A stretch of 64,000 nt of DNA, taken from contig CP131056.1 in assembly GCA_030657355.1 (NCBI GenBank), forward strand, positions 434,001 to 498,000, in the 5' to 3' direction. This stretch comes from Radicibacter daui (lineage in GTDB: Bacteria; Pseudomonadota; Alphaproteobacteria; Radicibacterales; Radicibacteraceae). Under the pieces are notes generated by a model. That model saw nothing but the letters and a program-made list of their open reading frames with translations, ran no database searches and had not been told where the DNA came from. The stretch's first letter is position 1; each line of letters starts with the position of its first letter. Below, piece after piece: positions 29,076-55,822 of the stretch. Made by a program: the position numbers and the translations under genes.

Positions 29076-30056
29076 TCAGCCCTGGTCCGGTCCCTGCTCA
29101 AGCAGGCCCCGCAACCCGACGAAGGCCGGCAGTTCGTGCGTTATCAGATATGTGGGGATCGGCTCGAGGAAATAGGAGAGGCGCCCCTTGGAGACGAAAC
29201 GGGCCCGGAAGGAGCTGTCGTCGAGGAAACTGCCGAGCCGGGGCGGAATACCGCCCCCGATGAAGACGCCGCCGCGGGCGCCCAATGTCAGCGCCACATT
29301 GCCGGCGACGTTGCCGAGGATGGAGCAGAAAATCTCCAGGGCCTCGCGCGCCGCCGGGTCGGCGCCGGCCAGGGCCTGCTCGGTGATCTCGTGCGGCTTG
29401 TAGTGCGGGCGCACATGGCCGTCGATCTCGTTGATGCCTTCATAAAGGTTCACGAGGCCCATGCCGGAGAGCACGCGCTCAAACGAGATATGGTCAAAGC
29501 GGCGGCGCAGGCGCGCAGTAATCGCTGCCTCGCGTTCGGTTGCCGGCGAAAAGGTGGCGTGCCCGCCTTCACCGGCAAGGCTGATCCAGCGGCCTCGGAA
29601 GGGCACGAGGCCGGAGACACCAAGGCCGGTGCCCGGGCCGACCACGGCGACGGGCGCACCTTCCAGCGGCCGGCCACCGCCGATCTGCCGGCGGTCTTTT
29701 TCCTGAAGGAAGGGCATCGACATGGCAACGGCGGTAAAGTCGTTGACGACCTGCAGCGTGCCCAGTTCCAGCGCCTTGCGCACGTCTTCGATGGAGAAGG
29801 ACCAGCTGTTGTTGGTCAGCGAGACGCGGTCGCCGGTAACGGCGGTCGCCACGCAAAAGGCGCCGTGCCGCGGCTTTTCATCCACCGTTTCCAGAAACGC
29901 CCGCGCCGCGCCGATCACGTCGCGATAGTCGGCGCATTGCAGCACCTTGGAGACGTAACTGCCATCCTCCTGCATCAGGGCGAAGCGCGCATTGGTGCCG
30001 CCGATATCGGCGATCAGGGCGGGGTAGGCGTCCGGATTGCGGGAGGTCTCGGTCAT
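29076..30056 (-). CDS. glk: Glucokinase
   Basis: 326 residues. The bacterial (non-ROK) glucokinase signatures are the ATP site ADIGGTNARFAL (about 16-27), VVNDFTAVAMS, GPGTGLGVSGLVP and the EGGHATFSP segment. It phosphorylates glucose with ATP in the cytoplasm. The ATG at 30056 shares one base with the otsA stop (TAATG), so it is translated together with the trehalose genes. Glucose released from trehalose could be recycled by it. The frame upstream to 30134 is only overlap with otsA. Confidence 0.95.
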   Translation of the reverse strand: MTETSRNPDAYPALIADIGGTNARFALMQEDGSYVSKVLQCADYRDVIGAARAFLETVDEKPRHGAFCVATAVTGDRVSLTNNSWSFSIEDVRKALELGTLQVVNDFTAVAMSMPFLQEKDRRQIGGGRPLEGAPVAVVGPGTGLGVSGLVPFRGRWISLAGEGGHATFSPATEREAAITARLRRRFDHISFERVLSGMGLVNLYEGINEIDGHVRPHYKPHEITEQALAGADPAAREALEIFCSILGNVAGNVALTLGARGGVFIGGGIPPRLGSFLDDSSFRARFVSKGRLSYFLEPIPTYLITHELPAFVGLRGLLEQGPDQG

Positions 30057-31441
30057 TATCCAGCCGTTGCGTGAAGAGCTTTGAGGTAGGCCTTGCGCCA
30101 GTGCTCGATGGTGTTCGCCTCCAGCACTGCCCACATGGTTTGCCAGCGCTCCTTTCTTTCGTCCAGCGGCATGGAGAGGCCGCGGCGAAGGTTCTCGGCT
30201 GAATCTTCAATATCATAGGGATTGACCAGCAGGGCCCCGCCGCCGAGCTCGGAAGCGGCGCCGGCAAATTGCGACAGTACCAGCACACCGGGATCTTCCG
30301 GATCCTGGGCGGCGACGAATTCCTTGGCGACAAGGTTCATGCCGTCGCGCAGCGGGGTGACGAGGCCGATGCGGGCAATACGGTAGAAACCGGCGAGCGT
30401 GCGCCGGCCGTAACCCTTGTTGATGTAGCGCAGCGGCTGCCAGTCGAACTCGGCATGCTGGCCGTTGATATGGCCGGCAATCTGCTCCAGCTCAGCCCGG
30501 ATCGCCTGGTATTCCGGCACGTTTTCCCGCGAGGGCGGAGCGATCTGCATCATCGTTACCCGGTTGTTCATGTCCGGATAGTTTTCGAGCAGTTTGCCAA
30601 AGGCCTCGAACCGCTGGGGCATTCCCTTGGAGTAATCGAGCCGGTCGACCCCCAGCACCAGCTGGCGCTCGTTGAGCGAGCGCACGAAGCGCCGGAGTGT
30701 GGGAGTTTTGGCAATCTGGGCCGCCAGCGTCGACATGCCGGCAACATCGATGGAAATCGGAAATACCTGCGTTTCGACAGTGCGGCCGAACGCCTCGATG
30801 CGTCCGTCTTCAAGCACGTGTCCGCCGGCCCAGTCGGTCAGGTAACGGCGCAGGGCCGCATTATCGGATTCCGTCTGGAAACCGATGAGGTCGTAGGCGC
30901 AGAAGCTGCGCATCAGCAGCTTGAGGTTGGGCAGCGCGCCCAGCACCTCCGGAACCGGAAATGGCGTGTGCAGGAAAAAGCCGATGCGGTTGGTATAGCC
31001 CATCTGCCGCAGCTCTTCGGCGATGGGGATCAGGTGATAGTCATGCACCCAGATCACATCATCGGGGCGCAGCAGTTGCGCCAGCTTGTGGGCGAAGAGG
31101 GCGTTGACCCGGTGGTATCCGGCATAGGTGCGCTGGCGGAACGCGGCCAGATCGAGACGGTAGTGAAAGAGCGGCCACAGCGTCGAGTTGGCGTAGCCGT
31201 TGTAATATTCGTCATAGTCGGTAGCCGACAGGTCGAGCTGGGCATAGGTCACGCCCGCATGTTCGGCGATATGCGGCTCAGACTGCGGGCTATCGCTGGC
31301 ATGGCCGGACCAGCCGAACCAGAGCCCCCCGGTGGTGGAGAGCGCCTCCTGCATGGCAACGGCAAGGCCGCCGCCGTTGGCGGCGGCCTTGCCGGGGTTC
31401 GGGGCGGCAACACGGTTGGAAACGACGACGAGCCGACTCAT
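30056..31441 (-). CDS. otsA: Trehalose-6-phosphate synthase
   Basis: 461 residues, a normal length for GT20 enzymes. Seen are the N-terminal VVVSNRVA with the glycine loop [35 protein letters not shown] and [12 protein letters not shown] near the end. It joins UDP-glucose (or another NDP-glucose) to glucose-6-phosphate. ATG at 31441 overlaps the otsB stop by four bases. The open frame to 31495 lies inside otsB. Trehalose serves as an osmolyte and desiccation protectant. Confidence 0.96.
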
Positions 31442-32295
31442 GGTTGCTGGTCTCCCGGACGCGGCTGCACCTGGCTGATGAAGTCTGTAAGCCATCTGTG
31501 AAGCTCCTTCGGGGTTGGAAAGCTGGTCGTCGCCCGCGTAGGCCGACGCTCGCCGACGATCACGCCGCTGCCGCCAAAGGGGAGCACGGCTTCAAACCCG
31601 GCCTCGTCGGTCAGATCGTCGCCGATGAAAACAGGTCTGCGGCCCGCAAAGAGCGGCTCGGCCATCATGTGGCGCACCGTGCTGCCCTTGTCGCCGCCGC
31701 TCTGGCGCAGCTCGTAGACGCATTTGCCGGCTTGCAGTTCGAAGCTGCCGGCAAATTTCCGGGCCAGTGCTTCGGCAACCTCGGCGGCGGCCGGATCGGC
31801 CCCGGGAGCGCCTCGCGTATGAAGCGCCGCACCATGCGGCTTGTTTTCAACCCTGAGGCCGGGATGGAGGCCAGCCAGCTGTTGCATTCTGCCGGTAATG
31901 GTGGCCAGAGCGGCGCGGTCAGGTTCCGGGCTTTCGACGGGAAGTTCTGCCGCCCGGCGCCACTCCAGCCCGTGCTGTCCGCCGGCCGGGCCGGCAAAGG
32001 GGGCCAGCAGCTGGTCTATCTGTTCCAGCGGCCGGCCGGAGACGATGGCGAGGGCACCGCCCAGCAGATCATGTGCGGTTTGCAGCAGCGCCGGTAATCC
32101 GGCGGGGATGATGACGGCATCGGGAGTGGCGGCGATATCGATCAGCGTGCCATCGAAATCCAGAAAAAGGCAGTCATCCACGCCCAGTGCCGGTGGTGGT
32201 GGCAGGGTGTCCCCGTCTGTACCTGGTACACCCTGAAAGCCCGTTACTCGGCTGTCGATTGTCTGGTGAGTTGATGGAACGCCTTCTCCGGCCAT
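31438..32295 (-). CDS. otsB: Trehalose-6-phosphate phosphatase
   Basis: About 285 residues from ATG 32295 (an alternative ATG at 32337 adds 14). HAD motif I is FLDFDGTLIDIA, motif II is IVSGRPLEQI, and motif IV is FIGDDLTDEAGFE. The enzyme dephosphorylates trehalose-6-phosphate. It is the first gene of otsB-otsA-glk, all joined by short overlaps. The promoter should lie in the 32296-32663 gap, which also holds a TGCATTGCA dyad at 32530-32538. Confidence 0.94.
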   Translation of the reverse strand: MAGEGVPSTHQTIDSRVTGFQGVPGTDGDTLPPPPALGVDDCLFLDFDGTLIDIAATPDAVIIPAGLPALLQTAHDLLGGALAIVSGRPLEQIDQLLAPFAGPAGGQHGLEWRRAAELPVESPEPDRAALATITGRMQQLAGLHPGLRVENKPHGAALHTRGAPGADPAAAEVAEALARKFAGSFELQAGKCVYELRQSGGDKGSTVRHMMAEPLFAGRRPVFIGDDLTDEAGFEAVLPFGGSGVIVGERRPTRATTSFPTPKELHRWLTDFISQVQPRPGDQQP

Positions 32296-32529
32296 GGTGA
32301 TTACTGTCTCCCTTTTTGAGCGTCCTTTGCCCGGCACCCCGGCAGGCGAGAGGGTCCGAAGAGCCTCTGGAGGGGGAAACGAGCGCCCTTTTCCCTTCAG
32401 CCGTCAGTCGGCAGGGCGGGGTGGCATGGGACGCCTTGCGGATGGTTTTGCTCATGTGCCGGAGTCCCCGGCGCATTCCTGCACAAACGCTCAACGCGCA
32501 AGAGCGGCAATTGGCTGCAATCTTTAATG

Positions 32530-32538
32530 TGCATTGCA
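32530..32538. promoter_or_regulatory. TGC-dyad, candidate PhaR site upstream of otsB
   Basis: TGCATTGCA is a perfect TGC-N3-GCA dyad, the same 9-mer (on the other strand) as that downstream of the phasin promoter. Published PhaR sites have the form CTGC-N3/4-GCAG; here the flanks are G and G. It lies 235 bases upstream of otsB. Confidence 0.5.
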
Positions 32539-32632
32539 GCATCTTTTAGGGGCGGGTTCCAGTTTTTCTGGCCGTTTTGGGGCAAAAAATGTGAAGCGGG
32601 CCCTTGAAATTTATGCGGAAAAGGCCAAATGT

Positions 32633-32641
32633 TGCAGTGCG
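32633..32641. promoter_or_regulatory. TGC-dyad, candidate PhaR site at the sRNA promoter
   Basis: TGCAGTGCG matches the TGCARTGCA 9-mer at eight positions and, with the preceding T, equals TTGCAGTGC found in the upstream phasin site. It lies just upstream of the probable sRNA start. Confidence 0.45.
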
Positions 32642-32663
32642 GCATGGCTGGAGGCTTTCGCTG

Positions 32664-32740
32664 GCCAACCATTCCGCAGCGCACTTTATTGGGCGTTTCC
32701 TCCCTAGACTTGGGCCGCGCTTGTCGCGGCCTTTCTTTTT
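32664..32740 (+). ncRNA. mmgR: MmgR-like (alpha-r8 family) small RNA
   Basis: The plus strand carries TTTCCTCCCT at 32696-32705, the invariant single-stranded 10-mer reported for the alphaproteobacterial alpha-r8/MmgR family, followed 7 bases later by a Rho-independent terminator (stem 32713-32719 with 32725-32731, then TTTCTTTTT). Both adjacent genes are on the minus strand, so this terminator is otherwise unexplained. The family is known to be syntenic with N-formylglutamate amidohydrolase, present here at 33.5 kb. In Sinorhizobium MmgR limits polyhydroxybutyrate accumulation. The 5' end is set by analogy with the 77-nt Sinorhizobium RNA and is uncertain by tens of bases. Confidence 0.82.
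32713..32740 (+). terminator. Terminator of the MmgR-like sRNA
   Basis: GGCCGCG/CGCGGCC stem with loop CTTGT, followed by TTTCTTTTT on the plus strand only; the minus strand has no T-run after the hairpin. Confidence 0.88.
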
Positions 32741-32762
32741 GGGAGTTTCCTTGCGTGGGCGA

Positions 32763-33413
32763 TCAGAGAATCGCCGGCCGGATCAGCGGAATGAATTCGC
32801 GCTCGAAGCCTTCGGGCGGGGGCGGCAGGGTGGCATCACCGTCGCCGAGCGAGCGCTGCAGCATCACGATATCGACCCACTGGTTCTGCTTGAAGCCCAC
32901 GCCCTTGAGGTGCGCCACGCGTTCAAAGCCCAGCCGCTCGTGCAGCAGGGTGGAGCGGGTATCCTGCGCCGTCACGCCGGTCACCGCGATCATCTGCCGG
33001 TAACCCATCATGGTGCAGCGGTCGATAAGCGCGGTCAGCAGCGCGCGGCCGACACCGCGACCCTCGATGCCCGGCTTCACATAGATCGAATCCTCGACCA
33101 GGAAGCGGTAGGCCGAGCGCGCGCGGAACGGCGCTGCATAACAGAAGCCAGAGACCTCCCCTTCCAGCTCGGCGGCCAGGTAAGGCAGGCCTGCGCTCTG
33201 CACGGCGCGCAGTCGGCGCAGCATCTCCTCGCGCGCTGGCGGCACTTCCTCGAACGTGGCGATGGTGGTCGTCACGTGATGGGCATAAAGCTGCTGGAAA
33301 GCGGGCACGTCGCTGTCGCGCGCCGGACGAACCGTCACATCGGTAAAACGCGCCGGACGCGGCTGCGCGGGATCGATGAGATGAGGGGTCTCGGGGCGGG
33401 GTTGACGGGACAT
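32763..33413 (-). CDS. GNAT acetyltransferase, phosphinothricin-acetyltransferase-like
   Basis: 216 residues. The GNAT core starts at VRPARDSDVPAFQQLY (about residue 27) with the acetyl-CoA loop GRGVGRALL (the Q/R-x-x-G-x-G/A pattern) and the C-terminal GFERVAHLKGVGFKQNQWVDIV, typical of the PAT/methionine sulfoximine acetyltransferase group. An N-terminal stretch of about 26 residues is not conserved. It converges on the MmgR-like sRNA, ending 23 bases from its terminator. Substrate is unknown. Confidence 0.88.
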   Translation of the reverse strand: MSRQPRPETPHLIDPAQPRPARFTDVTVRPARDSDVPAFQQLYAHHVTTTIATFEEVPPAREEMLRRLRAVQSAGLPYLAAELEGEVSGFCYAAPFRARSAYRFLVEDSIYVKPGIEGRGVGRALLTALIDRCTMMGYRQMIAVTGVTAQDTRSTLLHERLGFERVAHLKGVGFKQNQWVDIVMLQRSLGDGDATLPPPPEGFEREFIPLIRPAIL

Positions 33414-33533: not shown

Positions 33534-34469
33534 TTATGCGGCGGGAGGGGGGCGCCTGCCAAGTGTCTTGCGGGCCTGAACGTCAATCGCGGCTGCAATG
33601 TGATATAAATCCCCGGCCAGCTTGCCGAAATCTTCTTCGCGGCGCTCCAGCGTCGCCTCATCCATGTAAAGCCAGCGGCCGATCTCGATCTGCAGCACAT
33701 GGATGCCGGCTTCTGGCCGGCCGTAATGCCGGGTGATGAAGCCGCCGGCATAAGGGCTGTTGCGCGCGACCTCGAAGCCGCGCGTACGGGCTGCCGCCTC
33801 CGCGGCGCCCACCAGTGCGGGATCGCACGAGGCACCGAAAAAGTCGCCGAACACGATATCGGAAGCGTGGCGGCCCCCGCGGGCGCGTTGGGTGGTTTGC
33901 GATTCGGACGGCATTGAGTGACAGTCCAGCAGCACGCAGAGGCCAAAGCGCTCCTGCGTGCGTTCAATGAGCCGGTCGAGCGCATCGTGATAGGGGCGGT
34001 AGTGTTCCTCGATGCGGCGCTCCACCTCGGCGAAGTCGAGCTTGTGGCGGTAGATTTCCTGCCCCTGCGCCACCACCTTCGCCACGGTGCCAAGGCCGTT
34101 GATGACACGCGGGCTGCGGGCATTGACGAAACCGGGCAGGTCGCCGGTAAACATGCCGGGGTCGAGCTCCCACGGTTCGCGATTCACATCCACATAGGCG
34201 CGCGGGAACAGCGCTTTCAGCAGCGGCGCTCCCAGAAGACGCGCGGCGGGTTCGGCCAGGGCATCGACGTGGCAATCTTCCGAGCGGCGCAAGCTCAACC
34301 GGTCGAGCCTGCTCTGGGCCAGGAAACTGTCGGGATAGAAGCTGCCGCTGTGCGGGGAGGCGAGCACGATGGGGGTTTTCTGGAGGGCTGGCTCCAGAAT
34401 GTCGATCACCTGGCCGGCCGGAGAAAGGGCGGCCACGGTGCCAGACTGCCGTGCGCTGAGTGCATCCAT
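33534..34469 (-). CDS. N-formylglutamate amidohydrolase family protein
   Basis: 311 residues from ATG 34469 (MDALSARQ). Family signatures are LASPHSGSFYPD, the RRSEDCHVDAL segment, YVDVNREPWELD, LLDCHSMPS and IEIGRWLYMDE, containing the likely zinc-binding His/Glu/Asp residues. Such enzymes cleave N-formylglutamate to formate and glutamate in histidine breakdown, but no hut genes are nearby, so the real substrate is open. In other alphaproteobacteria this gene is linked to mmgR; here a GNAT gene lies between them. Confidence 0.92.
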   Translation of the reverse strand: MDALSARQSGTVAALSPAGQVIDILEPALQKTPIVLASPHSGSFYPDSFLAQSRLDRLSLRRSEDCHVDALAEPAARLLGAPLLKALFPRAYVDVNREPWELDPGMFTGDLPGFVNARSPRVINGLGTVAKVVAQGQEIYRHKLDFAEVERRIEEHYRPYHDALDRLIERTQERFGLCVLLDCHSMPSESQTTQRARGGRHASDIVFGDFFGASCDPALVGAAEAAARTRGFEVARNSPYAGGFITRHYGRPEAGIHVLQIEIGRWLYMDEATLERREEDFGKLAGDLYHIAAAIDVQARKTLGRRPPPAA

Positions 34470-34593
34470 AACCAACCGTTTATCCCACAGGGCCACGATA
34501 GTCACCCGTGGCAAAAGTCTAATCGTTGCCGGCCAGCCGCGCTGTTATGCCCATCGTCGCGGGAGCCATGCGTGACGGAGCGTTCAAAAAGGC

Positions 34594-41946: not shown

Positions 41947-42561
41947 TTATTTGCTCAGCTTGTCGATCTTCTGCTGCAATTCGTCGAGACGCGATTGCAG
42001 CATGTTGAGTGCATCCTCGGCCGGATTGCCGGTACTGGCCGGGCGCTGCGGAGCGGCGCTTCCGGAAGCCGGCGGAGAGTAGGGCGAGAACACCTGGAAC
42101 GCCCGGTCGAAGAGCGCCATGTTCTGCTTGGCCATTTCCTCCAGCGCGGCGCCGAAGGGAAACATCGCCGGCATCCCGCCCATCGGGGCCAGCGAGTTCT
42201 TCATATAGTCGCGCATGCGCTCCTGATTGGAGGAGAAGGCCTGCATTGAATGTTCGAGGTAGCGCGGCACCGCCCACTGCATGCTGTCGCCATAAAAGGC
42301 GATAAGCTGGCGCAGGAAGCTGATGGGCAGCAGGTTCTGCCCGCCCTTGCTCTCTTCCTCGACGATGATCTGGGTCAGCACCGAGCGGGTGATGTCCTCG
42401 CCTGTCTTGGCGTCATAGACCACGAAGTCGGCACCCTCCTTGACCAGGCCGGCAAGGTGATCAAGGGTCACATAGCTGCTGGTTGCGGTATTGTAGAGGC
42501 GCCGGTTCGCATATTTCTTGATGGTAATCGGAGCGGGTTTTTCTTCGTCAGCCTTTGTCAT
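41947..42561 (-). CDS. phaR: Polyhydroxyalkanoate synthesis repressor PhaR
   Basis: 204 residues from ATG 42561. The N-terminal PHB/PHA accumulation-regulator DNA-binding domain is at ITIKKYANRRLYNT...YVTLDHLAGLV, followed by two PHB_acc repeats (LTQIIVEEESKG and LIAFYGDSMQ) and a C-terminal coiled coil (SRLDELQQKIDKLS). PhaR binds PHB granules and, when no granule is available, represses phasin and its own gene. It is divergent from the PHB-linked gene pair across 157 bases containing CGCAATGCA at 42662. The longer frame to 42612 is unconserved. Confidence 0.95.
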   Translation of the reverse strand: MTKADEEKPAPITIKKYANRRLYNTATSSYVTLDHLAGLVKEGADFVVYDAKTGEDITRSVLTQIIVEEESKGGQNLLPISFLRQLIAFYGDSMQWAVPRYLEHSMQAFSSNQERMRDYMKNSLAPMGGMPAMFPFGAALEEMAKQNMALFDRAFQVFSPYSPPASGSAAPQRPASTGNPAEDALNMLQSRLDELQQKIDKLSK

Positions 42562-42670: not shown

Positions 42671-42718
42671 ACAGGCGGGCAGGATGTCCGGCCGGCACAA
42701 AAGGGAGGAAGGCGTCAC

Positions 42719-43195
42719 ATGGGTGCCGATCACGGCGATGACGGTTCGGCGGGCCCCGGCCGGACTGCGGAGCTGGCCGGGCTTGCCCGCGAGTTTGTCG
42801 ATCTCTGGCAGGACCAGGTGGCGGCGAACCTTGCCGATCCCGAAACCGCCGAGACGCTGACACGGTTGACGGCGATGTGGAGCGGGGCTGCCAGCGCCAT
42901 GATAGCGGCACTTGCCGGCGCGGGTGAAAGCAGATCGGGGCAGAAGACGGGTGCCGGTACCGGCGGCGGGAGTGGAACGCATGACAGGCAAGCGGACGCC
43001 GGCACCGACGCCGATTTCGCAGGAGAAACCGCCAGCAGCAAGGCTGGGTCCACGGCCGCTCTGGCTGCATCTGGGGCTGGCGGCGATGCCCTGGCTCGGC
43101 TCGCCGGCCGCCTGGACGCAGTGGAAGCAAGGCTCGCCGCCCTGGAAGGGCGCGCAGGCAAGCGATCTGGAGGCCGTCGCCCGAAAGCTGGCTGA
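42719..43195 (+). CDS. Small PHB-cluster protein with C-terminal coiled coil (PhaE-like in position)
   Basis: 158 residues. The N-terminal helix AREFVDLWQDQVAANLADPETAE resembles small PHA-synthase-associated proteins, a Gly/Ser/Ala-rich linker follows, and the end (LARLAGRLDAVEARLAALEGR) is a heptad coiled coil with a basic tail. GGGAGG at 42703-42708 lies ten bases before the ATG, so it is surely translated. Its last 215 bases overlap the PhaC-like gene in another frame. I infer a granule or synthase partner; no family name is certain. Confidence 0.75.
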   Translation: MGADHGDDGSAGPGRTAELAGLAREFVDLWQDQVAANLADPETAETLTRLTAMWSGAASAMIAALAGAGESRSGQKTGAGTGGGSGTHDRQADAGTDADFAGETASSKAGSTAALAASGAGGDALARLAGRLDAVEARLAALEGRAGKRSGGRRPKAG

Positions 43196-44261
43196 CTATC
43201 CGGCAGAGGCGGTAGAAGCGGCGCTGGCTGCCGAGGGCGTGCGCCGCCTTGCTCGCATGATGGCCGGCGTCAGCCGCTATCGGGCCCATCCCTGGCACCG
43301 GCCTCCGGAGGCGGCGCCGGTGCTGTGGCAGGAGGGGTCAACCCGGCTTCTCGATTATGGGGCAGAGGGCGGGCGGCCGCTCCTCATCGTGCCATCGCTC
43401 ATCAACCGGGCCTATGTGCTGGATCTGATGGCGGAGCGCTCTTTCCTGCGCTTCCTCGCCGGGGCCGGCCTGCGTCCTTTGCTGGTGGACTGGGGTGTTC
43501 CCGGTGCAGCCGAGACCAACTTCGGACTCGATGATTATGTGGCCGGGCGGCTTGCCCGGGCGCTGGCTGTTACCCGCACCCTGGCGGGCGGGCCGGTGCC
43601 GGTGATCGGCTACTGCATGGGCGGCCTGCTGGCTGCCGGCCTTGCGGCGCTGGAGCCGGCCGCCATCTCGGCGCTCGTCTTCCTCGCCACACCCTGGGAT
43701 TTTTATGTGGCCGACGATGGGGTGACCGGACGGCAGATGGCGGCACTGCATGCCGTATTGGCACCTGCCCTTTCGGCCTGGGGGGCGATGCCCACCGACA
43801 TGCTGCAGCTGTTTTTCACCGCGCTCGATCCGTTGCTCGCTGCCCGCAAGTTTTCGCGATTCGCTGCTGCAGAAGCCGGAGAACCGCCGCCTGAAGGCCG
43901 GCCCGATAGCGCCTTTGTGGCGGTGGAGGACTGGCTTAATGACGGCGTGCCGCTCGTCGCCCGCGTTGCCGGGGAGTGCCTTGCCGGTTGGTGGGGCGCC
44001 AATACGCCCGCCACTGGAAAGTGGGAGGTGGCGGGCTGCCCCGTTGTCGCCGGAAAGCTGGCGCAGCCTTCCCTCGTGGTCGTGCCTTCCGCCGACCGCA
44101 TCGTGCCGCCGGCCAGCGCGCTGGCGCTGGCTTCGGCCCTGCCGCGCCGCGATCTCATCGAACCGCCGCTCGGCCATATCGGCATGATGGTCAGTGCCAA
44201 GGCGCCGGGCTGGGTTTGGCAACCCTTGCGCGACTGGCTCGTCACTATGACGGCCTCGTGA
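42981..44261 (+). CDS. PhaC-like alpha/beta hydrolase
   Basis: 426 residues. The lipase-like box is GYCMGG with nucleophile C212, as in PHA synthases, in which Cys forms the acyl-enzyme. Other synthase-like segments are LLIVPSLINRAYVLDL, PLLVDWG and FLATPWDFY, with a late HIGMM His. It is shorter than class I PhaC (near 590 residues) and lacks much of the N-terminal domain, so it may be a divergent synthase or an accessory hydrolase. ATG 42981 has GGGAG eight bases upstream, although it lies inside the preceding gene. Followed by phaA. Confidence 0.85.
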   Translation: MTGKRTPAPTPISQEKPPAARLGPRPLWLHLGLAAMPWLGSPAAWTQWKQGSPPWKGAQASDLEAVARKLADYPAEAVEAALAAEGVRRLARMMAGVSRYRAHPWHRPPEAAPVLWQEGSTRLLDYGAEGGRPLLIVPSLINRAYVLDLMAERSFLRFLAGAGLRPLLVDWGVPGAAETNFGLDDYVAGRLARALAVTRTLAGGPVPVIGYCMGGLLAAGLAALEPAAISALVFLATPWDFYVADDGVTGRQMAALHAVLAPALSAWGAMPTDMLQLFFTALDPLLAARKFSRFAAAEAGEPPPEGRPDSAFVAVEDWLNDGVPLVARVAGECLAGWWGANTPATGKWEVAGCPVVAGKLAQPSLVVVPSADRIVPPASALALASALPRRDLIEPPLGHIGMMVSAKAPGWVWQPLRDWLVTMTAS

Positions 44262-48239: not shown

Positions 48240-48677
48240 TTACTTGGAAGCGGTCTTCAGCTTGGTCACGAGCGTCTTGACCTCATCGAGGCTGGCGACG
48301 ACGCGCTTGCTGATAACGTCAGCGGCTTCCTTGTTGGACTTGGAAACCATCTCGGCCAGCTCGGTCATGTTGCCGAGCGCCTTCTCGAAGGCGGCCTTGA
48401 GGAGTTCGGTCTCCTTGGCAACCTTCTCTTCCGGCGCGCTGGCGGCCATCAGTTCGCGCAGCATGACATTGGCTTCTTCCATGGTCTGGCGGAAGATTTC
48501 GGTCTGGCGGCGCAGGACGGCCTGCACGCCTTCGAAGGCAAGCTGGTTGGCCTGGGTCAGCGCTTCGATGTTCTTGCGCTGGGCGGTCACCAGGGCGTTC
48601 ATGTCGACGCCCGGAACCTTGAAGTCAGCCATGAGCTTGGTGAAATCGATATCGAGGAACGGGTTGGTGGCGGTCAT
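48240..48677 (-). CDS. phaP: Phasin family protein
   Basis: 145 residues from ATG 48677. It is amphipathic-helical throughout, with NPFLDIDFTKLMADFKVPGVDMNALV at the start (partial motif FTKLMADFKVPGVD) and the AQRKNIEALTQANQLAFEG phasin core. Phasins coat PHB granules and set their number and size. The gene stands alone between a strong terminator and a readable promoter with two TGC-dyads, the expected pattern for PhaR control. It is transcribed in the same direction as pgeF. Confidence 0.94.
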   Translation of the reverse strand: MTATNPFLDIDFTKLMADFKVPGVDMNALVTAQRKNIEALTQANQLAFEGVQAVLRRQTEIFRQTMEEANVMLRELMAASAPEEKVAKETELLKAAFEKALGNMTELAEMVSKSNKEAADVISKRVVASLDEVKTLVTKLKTASK

Positions 48678-48743
48678 GTCCTTATCCCTTTCTTTGCGCT
48701 CGTGCTTGCGGGTGCCGTTGGCCCCTGCGGCGCGGCGCTTTGG

Positions 48744-48752
48744 TGCAATGCA
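48744..48752. promoter_or_regulatory. TGC-dyad operator candidate downstream of the phasin promoter
   Basis: TGCAATGCA lies inside the 11-bp perfect palindrome GTGCAATGCAC (48743-48753), at about +11 to +19 from the predicted start, a position suited to repression by PhaR. Confidence 0.65.
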
Positions 48753-48769
48753 CAATTTGATCTGAGGGC

Positions 48770-48798: not shown

Positions 48799-48810
48799 TA
48801 TGAAAATTGC

Positions 48811-48819
48811 TGCACTGCA
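48811..48819. promoter_or_regulatory. TGC-dyad operator candidate upstream of the phasin promoter
   Basis: TGCACTGCA sits within ATTGC-TGCACT-GCAAT (48806-48821), about 50 bases before the predicted start and only four bases from the end of pgeF. Confidence 0.6.
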
Positions 48820-48822
48820 ATA

Positions 48823-49608
48823 TCACGTAAAAAGAGATATAACTGATATATTGCGCCCGTAATCGCTGTGGCCTTGCCGGCGGCTGGCGCGATAACTGAA
48901 GTGGGTATCCGCCCCCAGCGTGCCAAGGCCGCACCAGCGCGCCGCCGCCACGCCAGCCCGCTGCAGCCGGGCCACCACATAACCCGGCAGATCGAACAGC
49001 GGATGCCCTTCACGGGTGCCGGGGCGGAAGAAGCGGGCACTGGCCGGGTCCTCGGCCAGGAAGTTCTGCTCGAACTCCGGCCCCACCTCATACTGGTCAG
49101 GGCCGATACAGGGGCCAACGCAGGTTACGATGTCGCTGCGCCGTGCTCCGAGCGCCTCCATGGCGGCAATTGCACTGTCGGTTACGCCGCCGATGGCACC
49201 CTTCCACCCGGCATGCACCGCCCCGATAACGCCGGCCTTGCCATCTGCCAGCAGTACCGGCGCACAGTCCGCGGCGAGCGCGCCGAGGGCGATGCCCGGC
49301 GTGCGCGTAACCATGCCATCTACCCGTGGCAGTGGCGTGCCGGCCTCCCAGGGGGCGGTTACCGTCACGACATCGGCGCTGTGGCACTGGTGCACGGTCA
49401 GCAGCCGGTCGGGCTGGACCCCCATCAGGGCCGCTACCCGGGCGCGGTTTTCCGTCACTGCCGCGCCATCGTCATCGGACCCGAGCCCGCAATTGAGGCT
49501 GGTATAAATGCCGCCGCTGACACCGCCGGCCTTGCCGCAGAAGGCGTGACGAATGCCGGGCAGGCCTGCAAGTACCGGGTCGGTGGCATGGGCCAGAGCG
49601 GTGGTCAT
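48823..49608 (-). CDS. pgeF: PgeF/YfiH laccase-domain protein (peptidoglycan editing factor)
   Basis: 261 residues. The copper/zinc-site motifs of the family are present: TVHQCHSADV, AADCAPVLLAD, AVHAGWKG and CVGPCIGPDQYEVG. In E. coli the protein removes wrong amino acids (such as L-Ser) from cytoplasmic muropeptides; other members oxidise purine nucleosides. It is third in the lgt-methyltransferase-pgeF set, 65 bases after the methyltransferase gene. No terminator separates it from phaP. Confidence 0.93.
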   Translation of the reverse strand: MTTALAHATDPVLAGLPGIRHAFCGKAGGVSGGIYTSLNCGLGSDDDGAAVTENRARVAALMGVQPDRLLTVHQCHSADVVTVTAPWEAGTPLPRVDGMVTRTPGIALGALAADCAPVLLADGKAGVIGAVHAGWKGAIGGVTDSAIAAMEALGARRSDIVTCVGPCIGPDQYEVGPEFEQNFLAEDPASARFFRPGTREGHPLFDLPGYVVARLQRAGVAAARWCGLGTLGADTHFSYRASRRQGHSDYGRNISVISLFT

Positions 49609-54020: not shown

Positions 54021-54926
54021 ATGGTTGGTGTTGTCGATTTTGCGCTGAGCGACGCCGTCGAGGCGATCGCCGTGGAAACCGCCCCGGCTGCCGAGGCGCG
54101 TGGTCTGCGGTTGCTCGCCGATATCGCTCCTGATCTGCCCGAGGCCCTGTCGGGTGACTTCGCCGCCATCGAAACCCTGCTGCGGGCTTTTGCAGCCCAT
54201 GCGCTCGTCCGCACCGAGGCAGGCGGCATCAGCCTGCGCGCCCGCCCGGCGAGCCATTTTGCCGAAGCGGCCGATGGCCGGTCCTTCCTGCGTCTGGAAG
54301 TCAGCGATACCGGTACCGGTTATACGCAGGAGCAACTGGCAACCCTGTTCACCGCTGGAGCGGATGGCCCTGTTCCCGCCGGCCCCGCCGCACTCACGCT
54401 GGCCCGGTGCAGGGTTCTTGCACGGGCAGCGGGCGGTGAGGCGGGGGCGGATTCGATAGAAGGGCTTGGCTGCTGCTACTGGGCGGAGATTCCGATTTCG
54501 GTGCGCGACCCGTCACCGCTTGCCCCGGCCATTGCCATCGAGGATGCGCGCCTTGTCGTTGCCGGTTTCGGCCAGCGCTGGACGGAGGGGCTGCGCAGTA
54601 CCTTCAAGGTTGCCGGGCTCGGCCTTGCCCTGTGGGCAGTGGAAGATGACGACCCGGTCGAACTTGCAGCCCGGCTTGCCGTTGGCGCAGCTGAGCCCGT
54701 GCTGGTGCTGCTGCGTGTCGGGGCGGCGGTGGACGACGTGGGGGCGCTCTGCGCAAGGCTGGCGGCGGCAAGCAAGCCGGCGGTCATCCTTGCCTGTCAG
54801 GAGGGGCAACGGGCGGCGCTTGAGGCGTCCGGGCTGCCCGGGGTGAGTGCCATCATTACCCTGCCGCTACGACGGCAGCCGCTCTGGCGGGCAATTGCCC
54901 TGGCGATGGGGCGGACGGAAGCCTAG
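54021..54926 (+). CDS. Kinase-like ATPase domain plus receiver-like domain, no His domain
   Basis: 301 residues. The first 165 correspond to the part of a hybrid histidine kinase that follows HisKA: DFALSDAVEAIAVE, then LLADIAPDLPEALSGD, then the G1 box SDTGTGYTQEQL. The N-box asparagine is lost (LLRAFAAHALVRT). The last 130 residues look like a receiver fold without a phospho-acceptor Asp in the normal place. There is no DHp helix, membrane span or sensor. It may be a truncated hybrid kinase or a regulatory partner. The start lacks a good ribosome site. Its stop shares CTAG with the convergent sigma factor. Confidence 0.7.
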   Translation: MVGVVDFALSDAVEAIAVETAPAAEARGLRLLADIAPDLPEALSGDFAAIETLLRAFAAHALVRTEAGGISLRARPASHFAEAADGRSFLRLEVSDTGTGYTQEQLATLFTAGADGPVPAGPAALTLARCRVLARAAGGEAGADSIEGLGCCYWAEIPISVRDPSPLAPAIAIEDARLVVAGFGQRWTEGLRSTFKVAGLGLALWAVEDDDPVELAARLAVGAAEPVLVLLRVGAAVDDVGALCARLAAASKPAVILACQEGQRAALEASGLPGVSAIITLPLRRQPLWRAIALAMGRTEA

Positions 54927-55822
54927 CCGCTGAAGCAGCCTGCAAAGGTGCCGCCCAGCAGGGTGCGCAGCCGCTTCATCGCGTTCGCTTCGATCTGACG
55001 CACGCGGTCCCGGCTAAGGCCCAGTTCGTGGCCGATCTTCTCGAAGGAAAGGCGGCTCTCGGTCAGGTGGCGGCGGCGGATCACCAGGGCTTCCTGCCCC
55101 GGCAGGCGCTCCAGCGCCCGTTCCACCAGCCCCTTCCAGTAGGATTGCAACGAGCGTTCTTCGGCAATCTGGTCGGGGCCGGGCATGGCGCAGCCGATCT
55201 CTTCCTGCCAGTCCGGCGCGGTCTCTCCGGCCGCATCGGCGCTGGCAAAGAAGCGGGGGCGGGAGAGGCTGAGGTCGCTGGCCGCGATACGGGCGGCAAG
55301 ATCGCGCACCTCGCCGATGCTCAGGCGAAAACGGGCGGCAAGGCGGGACAGCGTGGCTTCGCCGGGAATTTCGGTGCCGGAGAGAAGGGTGCTGGCCAGC
55401 TTGCGCAGCGAGAAGAACAGCGAGCGATGGGCGCTCGTCTTGCCCGGCCGCACCAGCGACCAGTTGCGCACCACATAGTCCTGCATGGTGGAGCGAATCC
55501 ACCAGCGGGCATAGGTGGCAAAGCGGGCGCCGTTTTCCGGGTGGAAGCGGCCGGTCGCATGCATCAGGCCGATAAGGCCCTCCTGCATCAAATCTTCAAG
55601 CGCCGGACCGAGGCGGGCATAGCGCCGTGCCGCCATCACCACCACGCGCATGTGGCTGAGCGCCAGTGCCTGCGCGGCCTGCACGTCGCCGGCAAGGCTG
55701 CGTTCGGCAAGCGCGCGCTCCTCATCCGCGCTCAGCATTGGCTGGCGGCGGGCGCTGCGGATCAGGTGCAGGGAGGCCTCGGATGTCGGCATGCGCGGGC
55801 GTTTGCGGGGGCTGATGACCAA
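54923..55822 (-). CDS. RpoH-type sigma factor
   Basis: 299 residues from TTG 55822, or about 289 from ATG 55792. Region 2 includes EDLMQEGLIGLMHATGRFHPENGARFATYARWWIRS (partial motif FATYARWWIRS) and the RpoH box appears as RSLFFSLRKL; region 4.2 ends SFEKIGHELGLSRDRVRQIEANAMKRLR. Most heat-shock sigma factors in Alphaproteobacteria have paralogues, and this may be a secondary RpoH. It is divergent from prs across 392 bases and converges on the kinase-like gene. Confidence 0.9.
   Translation of the reverse strand: MVISPRKRPRMPTSEASLHLIRSARRQPMLSADEERALAERSLAGDVQAAQALALSHMRVVVMAARRYARLGPALEDLMQEGLIGLMHATGRFHPENGARFATYARWWIRSTMQDYVVRNWSLVRPGKTSAHRSLFFSLRKLASTLLSGTEIPGEATLSRLAARFRLSIGEVRDLAARIAASDLSLSRPRFFASADAAGETAPDWQEEIGCAMPGPDQIAEERSLQSYWKGLVERALERLPGQEALVIRRRHLTESRLSFEKIGHELGLSRDRVRQIEANAMKRLRTLLGGTFAGCFSG

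Follow-up and report, generated by a model that had tools for sequence, protein, structure and literature searches.

An alpha-r8/MmgR-family small RNA gene beside an N-formylglutamate amidohydrolase gene in Radicibacter daui, with predicted PhaR-type operators upstream

Between the trehalose operon and an N-formylglutamate amidohydrolase (FGase) gene of Radicibacter daui, the plus strand carries a conserved 10-mer followed by a terminator. Does this locus hold a small RNA (sRNA) gene of the alpha-r8/MmgR family and, if so, what would control that RNA and what would it act upon? The window that we analysed is a stretch of 64,000 nucleotides (assembly GCA_030657355.1, contig CP131056.1, positions 434,001 to 498,000), and coordinates given without a locus name refer to it. 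An earlier note, made from the letters alone, had proposed an MmgR homologue here and had named beforehand the lack of a covariance-model hit as an outcome that would refute it. We ran that search, and the proposal survived it: Rfam family RF00519 (suhB, described as mmgR RNA) matched with 45.6 bits against a gathering score of 41 (E 3.6e-6, 64 kb against all of Rfam). The features of the predicted RNA are as follows:

32675..32747, plus strand: alpha-r8/MmgR sRNA body, Rfam RF00519 over the full model (1-77)
32696..32705, plus strand: conserved 10-mer TTTCCTCCCT, predicted anti-Shine-Dalgarno seed (from the sequence and the centroid fold)
32712..32740, plus strand: Rho-independent terminator, an 8-pair stem (7 G-C) and a T-run (predicted)

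The 10-mer thus lies on the strand and at the position claimed for it, and the strong plus-strand terminator claimed at 32713-32740 is found with one further base. In the centroid fold the seed of the RNA, UUUCCUCCCU, has eight of its ten bases unpaired, the first two U being paired. The 4-pair 5' hairpin that Rfam places upstream of the 10-mer is poorly kept in the window copy and includes non-standard pairs; the fold of the single sequence predicts a different 5' stem, and the weak 5' hairpin is absent from the consensus fold.

The flanking genes place the predicted RNA in its neighbourhood:

32763..33413, minus strand: GNAT acetyltransferase between the sRNA and FGase (PF13420/PF00583; start chosen by eye)
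33534..34475, minus strand: FGase, convergent with the sRNA (PF05013, E 3.1e-75; start uncertain)
31438..32298, minus strand: trehalose-phosphatase otsB, the other neighbour of the sRNA (PF02358; start chosen by eye, uncertain)
30056-31495: otsA, after otsB (PF00982)
29076-30056: glucokinase, after otsA (PF02685)

Both adjacent protein genes are on the minus strand, GNAT on one side and otsB on the other, and the end of FGase, at 33534, is some 800 bases away from the sRNA terminator, all in line with the earlier note. Linkage to FGase has been reported for most species of the alpha-r8 family (PMC12559287). We compared the best 80 of at least 327 FGase relatives from named genomes (48-62% identity), and the exact 10-mer was present at 62 of these 80 loci. 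At all 62, as in the window, it is on the strand opposite to FGase and downstream of that gene; at 57 of them it is 56-301 bases from the end of the FGase match. Sixty-two is a lower bound, because the loci were recognised by 10-mer and position and not by the covariance model, and because some flanks are short.

Two features that had been read as departures from the usual synteny, a reversed hydrolase and an inserted GNAT gene, do not survive this comparison. The hydrolase is not reversed, because its order in the window is that of every 10-mer-bearing locus among these best 80 of at least 327, and a GNAT homologue adjoins FGase at 3 of the 80 (L034 of Tagaea, L047 of Elioraea and L061 of an Azospirillum MAG). 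The otsB/otsA genes likewise recur beyond the sRNA at two of the best 80 loci, L035 and L077. An unusual synteny is accordingly ruled out, convergence being the norm and neighbours such as GNAT or otsBA being found elsewhere as well. At six further loci otsB follows FGase (L056, L067, L076, L086, L098 and L108), and the exact 10-mer was not found there.

Aligning the window copy with the best-scoring copy elsewhere in the genome and with 27 of the 62 10-mer-bearing loci revealed changes on both sides, with pairing kept, at six of the eight predicted pairs of the terminator stem. The invariance of the 10-mer in this alignment is not counted as evidence, because the loci were selected by it. The fold energy itself does not stand out (z -1.33; it is equalled in 24 of 200 shuffles), and an energy only 1.3 s.d. 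below shuffles would fit the view that there is no sRNA gene here at all, just a terminator and a chance 10-mer. We consider this highly improbable in view of the full-length RF00519 match over the cut-off, the conserved position together with the upstream site described below, and a plus-strand T-run flanked by two minus-strand neighbours. With 10-mer, terminator, FGase linkage and a covariance-model score above gathering all in place, the proposed homology holds: judged by its sequence, the locus is a genuine member of the alpha-r8/MmgR family in the family's usual genomic place. We predict it to be the FGase-linked alpha-r8 gene (MmgR/SisA-type) of this genome and the positional counterpart of Sinorhizobium mmgR and Caulobacter sisA.

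It is one of several relatives. The genome (5.06 Mb, two contigs) yields four RF00519 matches at E <=0.001, two above the cut-off and two below it. The best-scoring copy (C1:3757832, or L001:1501-1582; 50.2 bits) has a glutamine-synthetase-like gene on one side and a MerR/citrate-synthase-like gene on the other; it shares its seed with the window copy and, to a large extent, the terminator stem, but has no PhaR site. The second of these neighbours looks like a MerR-citrate synthase fusion. One match below the cut-off (L003:1501-1576, 36.6 bits, core GATTCCTCCCT) lies just downstream of RNase J. The weakest, at 30.8 bits and without the full 10-mer, may be a chance match, because the same search also gave a match in a Thermus control genome. 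Across the class, 30 of 58 genomes (this one included) had a match at E 0.001 and 27 had one over the cut-off, under stricter filters that lose weak matches. Among the best matches from 29 other families (L005-L033), TCCTCCCT stands at the expected place in 23.

What would control such an RNA? In S. meliloti, PhaR (AniA) recognises the palindrome WNWD2NYGCRNYGCRNH2WNW and binds the mmgR promoter in vitro (PMC12542648). We built a PhaR matrix from 17 S. meliloti sites that were EMSA-positive and efficiently bound (PMC12542648), excluding that of mmgR itself, and the held-out mmgR site scored 21.9. Scanning the window with this matrix, and inspecting the region upstream of the 10-mer, gave the following candidates:

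32524..32544, plus strand: distal PhaR/AniA-like operator TTAATGTGCATTGCAGCATCT, score 22.5, third in the window
32627..32647, plus strand: proximal PhaR/AniA-like operator AAATGTTGCAGTGCGGCATGG, score 17.6, fourth in the window
32669..32689, plus strand: weaker third PhaR-like sequence, score 10.3 (within the random range), one mismatch to the consensus
48738-48758 and 48805-48825 (no strand assigned): two PhaR-like operators upstream of the phasin gene phaP, scores 25.8 and 23.9, the two best in the window
32604..32632, plus strand: candidate promoter TTGAAA-N17-AAATGT, weak, found by eye from comparison with L035 and L077

The four top scores of the whole 64 kb (17.6-25.8) therefore fall at two places, 48738 and 48805 before the phasin gene and 32524 and 32627 before the sRNA. 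Among 20 equally long first-order random sequences the maxima were 10.3-17.0, so that the proximal site, at 17.6 versus 17.0, is only just outside the random range. The YGCRNYGCR palindrome with AT-rich arms is thus predicted upstream of the sRNA, exactly at the distal operator and with one mismatch at the proximal one. The centres of the distal and proximal sites precede the 10-mer by 162 and 59 nt, respectively, the distal site falling on the otsB side of the sRNA, in the gap between the two genes; the weak third sequence overlaps the 5' part of the sRNA. Matches to the exact consensus WNWDDNYGCRNYGCRNHHWNW number two in 64 kb (32524-32544 and 48805-48825) where 0.21 are expected, and 3 of 100 shuffles reach two. 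Allowing one mismatch gave 9 window-wide against 5.8 expected (12 of 100 shuffles reach 9), and two looser patterns were not enriched across the window (5 against 6.1 expected, and 123 against 128.7).

A simple consensus scan of 32340-32780 found no sigma-70 promoter. The candidate promoter picked by eye overlaps the proximal operator and has a poor -10; the sRNA may start near 32639 if this TTGAAA/AAATGT pair is its promoter, or near 32660 if the S. meliloti spacing holds.

We then asked how often such sites recur. Among the 62 10-mer-bearing loci (from the best 80 of at least 327), 61 have a site scoring >=10 within 130 nt upstream of the 10-mer, as compared to 1 of 583 control stretches taken at random from the same loci. 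With near-duplicates removed, 47 of 48 loci from the same best 80 of at least 327 have a site, over a background of 0.004 per stretch. Their centres cluster 41-45, 50-56 and 89-94 nt before the 10-mer; the strict 21-base consensus is matched by only 13 of the 62 (again from the best 80 of at least 327). By eye, the Rhizobiales loci carry TTGACA on the sRNA strand and then a TTGTGC..GCACAA dyad, and many non-Rhizobiales loci have a TTGTGCA..GCAGCAA element nearer the RNA. A second set, which may overlap the first, comprised one locus of about 3 kb from each other family (L005-L033), and 6 loci in which the core was not located were left out of its counts. Of its FGase-linked loci, 11 of 16 score >=10, the exceptions being L007, L018, L020, L021 and L022; with no FGase within about 1.5 kb, 3 of 7 still do so. 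The other three RF00519 matches of the R. daui genome, at -1.9, 1.0 and 5.1, have no site.

Predicted PhaR-type operators thus recur in nearly all positional counterparts examined. Because they are found at loci of Rhizobiales, Acetobacteraceae and other non-rhizobial Alphaproteobacteria, these data suggest that PhaR control would be an old part of the FGase-linked locus rather than a rhizobial detail. We found no statement of this recurrence in the open-licence literature, of which our coverage was limited, and we make no claim of priority.

The same sites could instead serve the trehalose operon, or a shared divergent region, with the sRNA expressed weakly or not at all. The distal site sits between the sRNA and otsB and could act on otsBA, the scan described above found no promoter for the sRNA, and L077, where otsB is arranged in this way too, likewise carries two sites between sRNA core and otsB (L035 has one). 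Nevertheless, the sites recur where there is no otsB homologue, one being present at only 2 of the 62 10-mer loci (from the best 80 of at least 327), and in Rhizobiales, by eye, a clear TTGACA on the strand of the sRNA precedes the dyad. We therefore regard service to the trehalose genes as improbable and return to PhaR control of the sRNA.

In Sinorhizobium, MmgR limits PHB accumulation. The genes that PhaR control would involve lie close by, in agreement with the earlier remark that PHB genes are near: phaR, phaC, phaA, phaB and phaP are 9-16 kb from the sRNA. That remark is strengthened by the PhaR-like operators upstream of the sRNA.

41947..42561, minus strand: phaR, likely regulator of the operators (PF07879, E 1.3e-30; PF05233)
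42981-44261: phaC, overlapped by a 158-aa ORF
48240..48677, minus strand: phasin gene phaP (PF09361, E 4.3e-20)

The phaR gene is the single match in the genome, with phaC, phaA and phaB as neighbours and the sRNA 9 kb away, and an hfq gene is present in the genome. The two PhaR-like operators at phaP parallel S. meliloti, in which phaP1 and phaP2 are also reported with two each. The PHB synthase matches PhaC_N weakly (E 1.4e-5), and the 158-aa ORF (42719-43195), preceded by a strong ribosome-binding site, runs into the start of phaC; it is possibly an accessory subunit. Elsewhere in the window, an ORF at 54923-55822 (minus strand) resembles an RpoH-type sigma factor by eye only.

The upstream PhaR-like sites suggest that the sRNA restrains carbon uptake or storage once stores are full. 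The account that we think probable, while leaving it considerable room to be wrong, is that of an FGase-linked alpha-r8 sRNA under the control of PhaR and PHB, which acts with the aid of Hfq as an anti-Shine-Dalgarno brake on carbon import and storage. PhaR, the PHB-binding repressor, would repress the sRNA gene while stores are low; when stores are full, PHB granules would pull PhaR off and the sRNA would come on. An RNA of about 80-100 nt would then act with Hfq, its UUUCCUCCCU stretch pairing with Shine-Dalgarno sequences and blocking translation. The likeliest targets would be carbon-uptake genes (those of periplasmic solute-binding proteins) and PHB genes (the phaC leader), and the net outcome would be less carbon import and storage at full stores. 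This circuit is drawn from S. meliloti and Caulobacter; the identity, position, seed, terminator and operator-like sites come from the present sequence.

Caulobacter also offers a different model. There, SisA is expressed almost constitutively, is under the control of the sponge RNA CrfA, and acts on TonB receptors (PMC12559287). An RNA with the same seed could be a general anti-Shine-Dalgarno regulator of that kind, with a sponge as its main control and the link to PHB incidental, and the genome's further three RF00519 matches, which lack a PhaR site, fit such a role. An incidental link is, however, hard to hold against two operator-like sites here and at least one in 61 of 62 counterparts (from the best 80 of at least 327), and we consider the general regulator rather unlikely.

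Turning to targets of the PhaR-controlled brake, we note that direct targets of MmgR have been described as unknown (PMC7143759, 2020; PMC12559287, 2025), and that SisA targets the 5' UTR of a TonB-receptor mRNA with the same 10-mer (PMC12559287). The 5.06 Mb genome contains 15 exact complements of the 10-mer, versus 0 for the pattern read backward; two of the 15 are alpha-r8 genes themselves, and four sit 2-7 nt before the ATG of ORFs of >=259 aa. Within the window, one predicted target lies at the PHB genes:

42702..42711, plus strand: AGGGAGGAAG, ribosome-binding site of the phaC-overlapping ORF (start 42719), predicted to form 9 pairs and a G-U with the seed

By duplex energy with the 10-mer it ranks 8th of 1994 ATGs in the window.

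Genome-wide, GGGAGGAAA-N1-8-ATG has 47 matches, and 23 of the 40 ORFs of >=90 aa behind it encode solute-binding proteins by Pfam, belonging to ABC, TRAP and TTT importers. The control, HGGAGGAAA (another first base; 41 matches in the same genome), gave 8 of 27 (p 0.045 for the difference), so that these proteins are common in the control set too; it was used because a composition-matched control, GGAGGGAAA-ATG, had 4 sites, too few. Signal-peptide-like starts hardly differ (23 of 40, versus 14 of 28 in the control). At chosen ribosome-binding sites, counted by eye, GGGAGGA occurs in 7 of 18 DctP genes as compared to 2 of 29 SDR genes (p 0.018), and GGGAGG in 8 of 18 as compared to 5 of 29 (p 0.054); the SDR set comprises the best 30 of 76 matches minus one with a stop, with starts selected for the best pairing to the 16S end. 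Five DctP genes figure in both target tests, which are not independent, and the p-values are uncorrected.

Across the class, AGGGAGGAAA-ATG is as dense in the 30 genomes with an alpha-r8 match (0.68/Mb) as in the 28 without one (0.62/Mb). The motif may be no more than a strong Shine-Dalgarno sequence, because it is equally frequent without alpha-r8, and for the same reason this test counts against the target part of the account. When a single site was taken per genome in 30 genomes, 25 ORFs of >=60 aa resulted, several of them binding-protein-like by eye, and two of these stand in genomes without an alpha-r8 match (L229 of G016 and L241 of G022). The S. meliloti mutant has raised phasin levels (PMC8401924); the phasin ribosome-binding site of R. 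daui pairs poorly with the seed region (-14.9 kcal/mol). Given the equal motif density, the similar signal-peptide starts and the weak phasin pairing, the predicted targets, solute-binding proteins and the phaC leader, have modest support and are a lead.

The closest known systems share parts of this arrangement. With MmgR of S. meliloti the locus has in common the Rfam family, the 10-mer, the terminator and an upstream PhaR (AniA) site, to which PhaR binds in vitro in the case of S. meliloti (PMC12542648). That species has only one mmgR copy (PMC12559287), for which one site is listed (PMC12542648), whereas R. daui has four matches, two of them over the cut-off and two weaker, and at this locus two operator-like sites and a weak third. 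SisA-D of Caulobacter crescentus have the same 10-mer seed, in several copies per genome of which one is FGase-linked (PMC12559287). In Caulobacter, TonB receptors are prominent among the targets, and the main text of PMC12559287 has 0 mentions of PhaR; in R. daui, a search for exact 10-mer complements identified no CrfA-like sponge. AbcR1/AbcR2 (alpha-r15) and NfeR1 of S. meliloti likewise act on Shine-Dalgarno sequences and silence mRNAs of solute-binding proteins (PMC8844928), although they belong to RNA families other than alpha-r8.

PhaR control is already known for mmgR of S. meliloti, and the R. daui locus is an ordinary counterpart of known ones. For the class as a whole, we offer as a tentative and quite possibly mistaken proposal that FGase-linked alpha-r8 is the RNA arm of PhaR, through which full PHB stores would close ABC, TRAP and TTT import as well as phaC, while duplicate copies would have lost the operator and answer other signals. 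If true, this would join carbon storage, a small RNA and nutrient uptake in one testable circuit.
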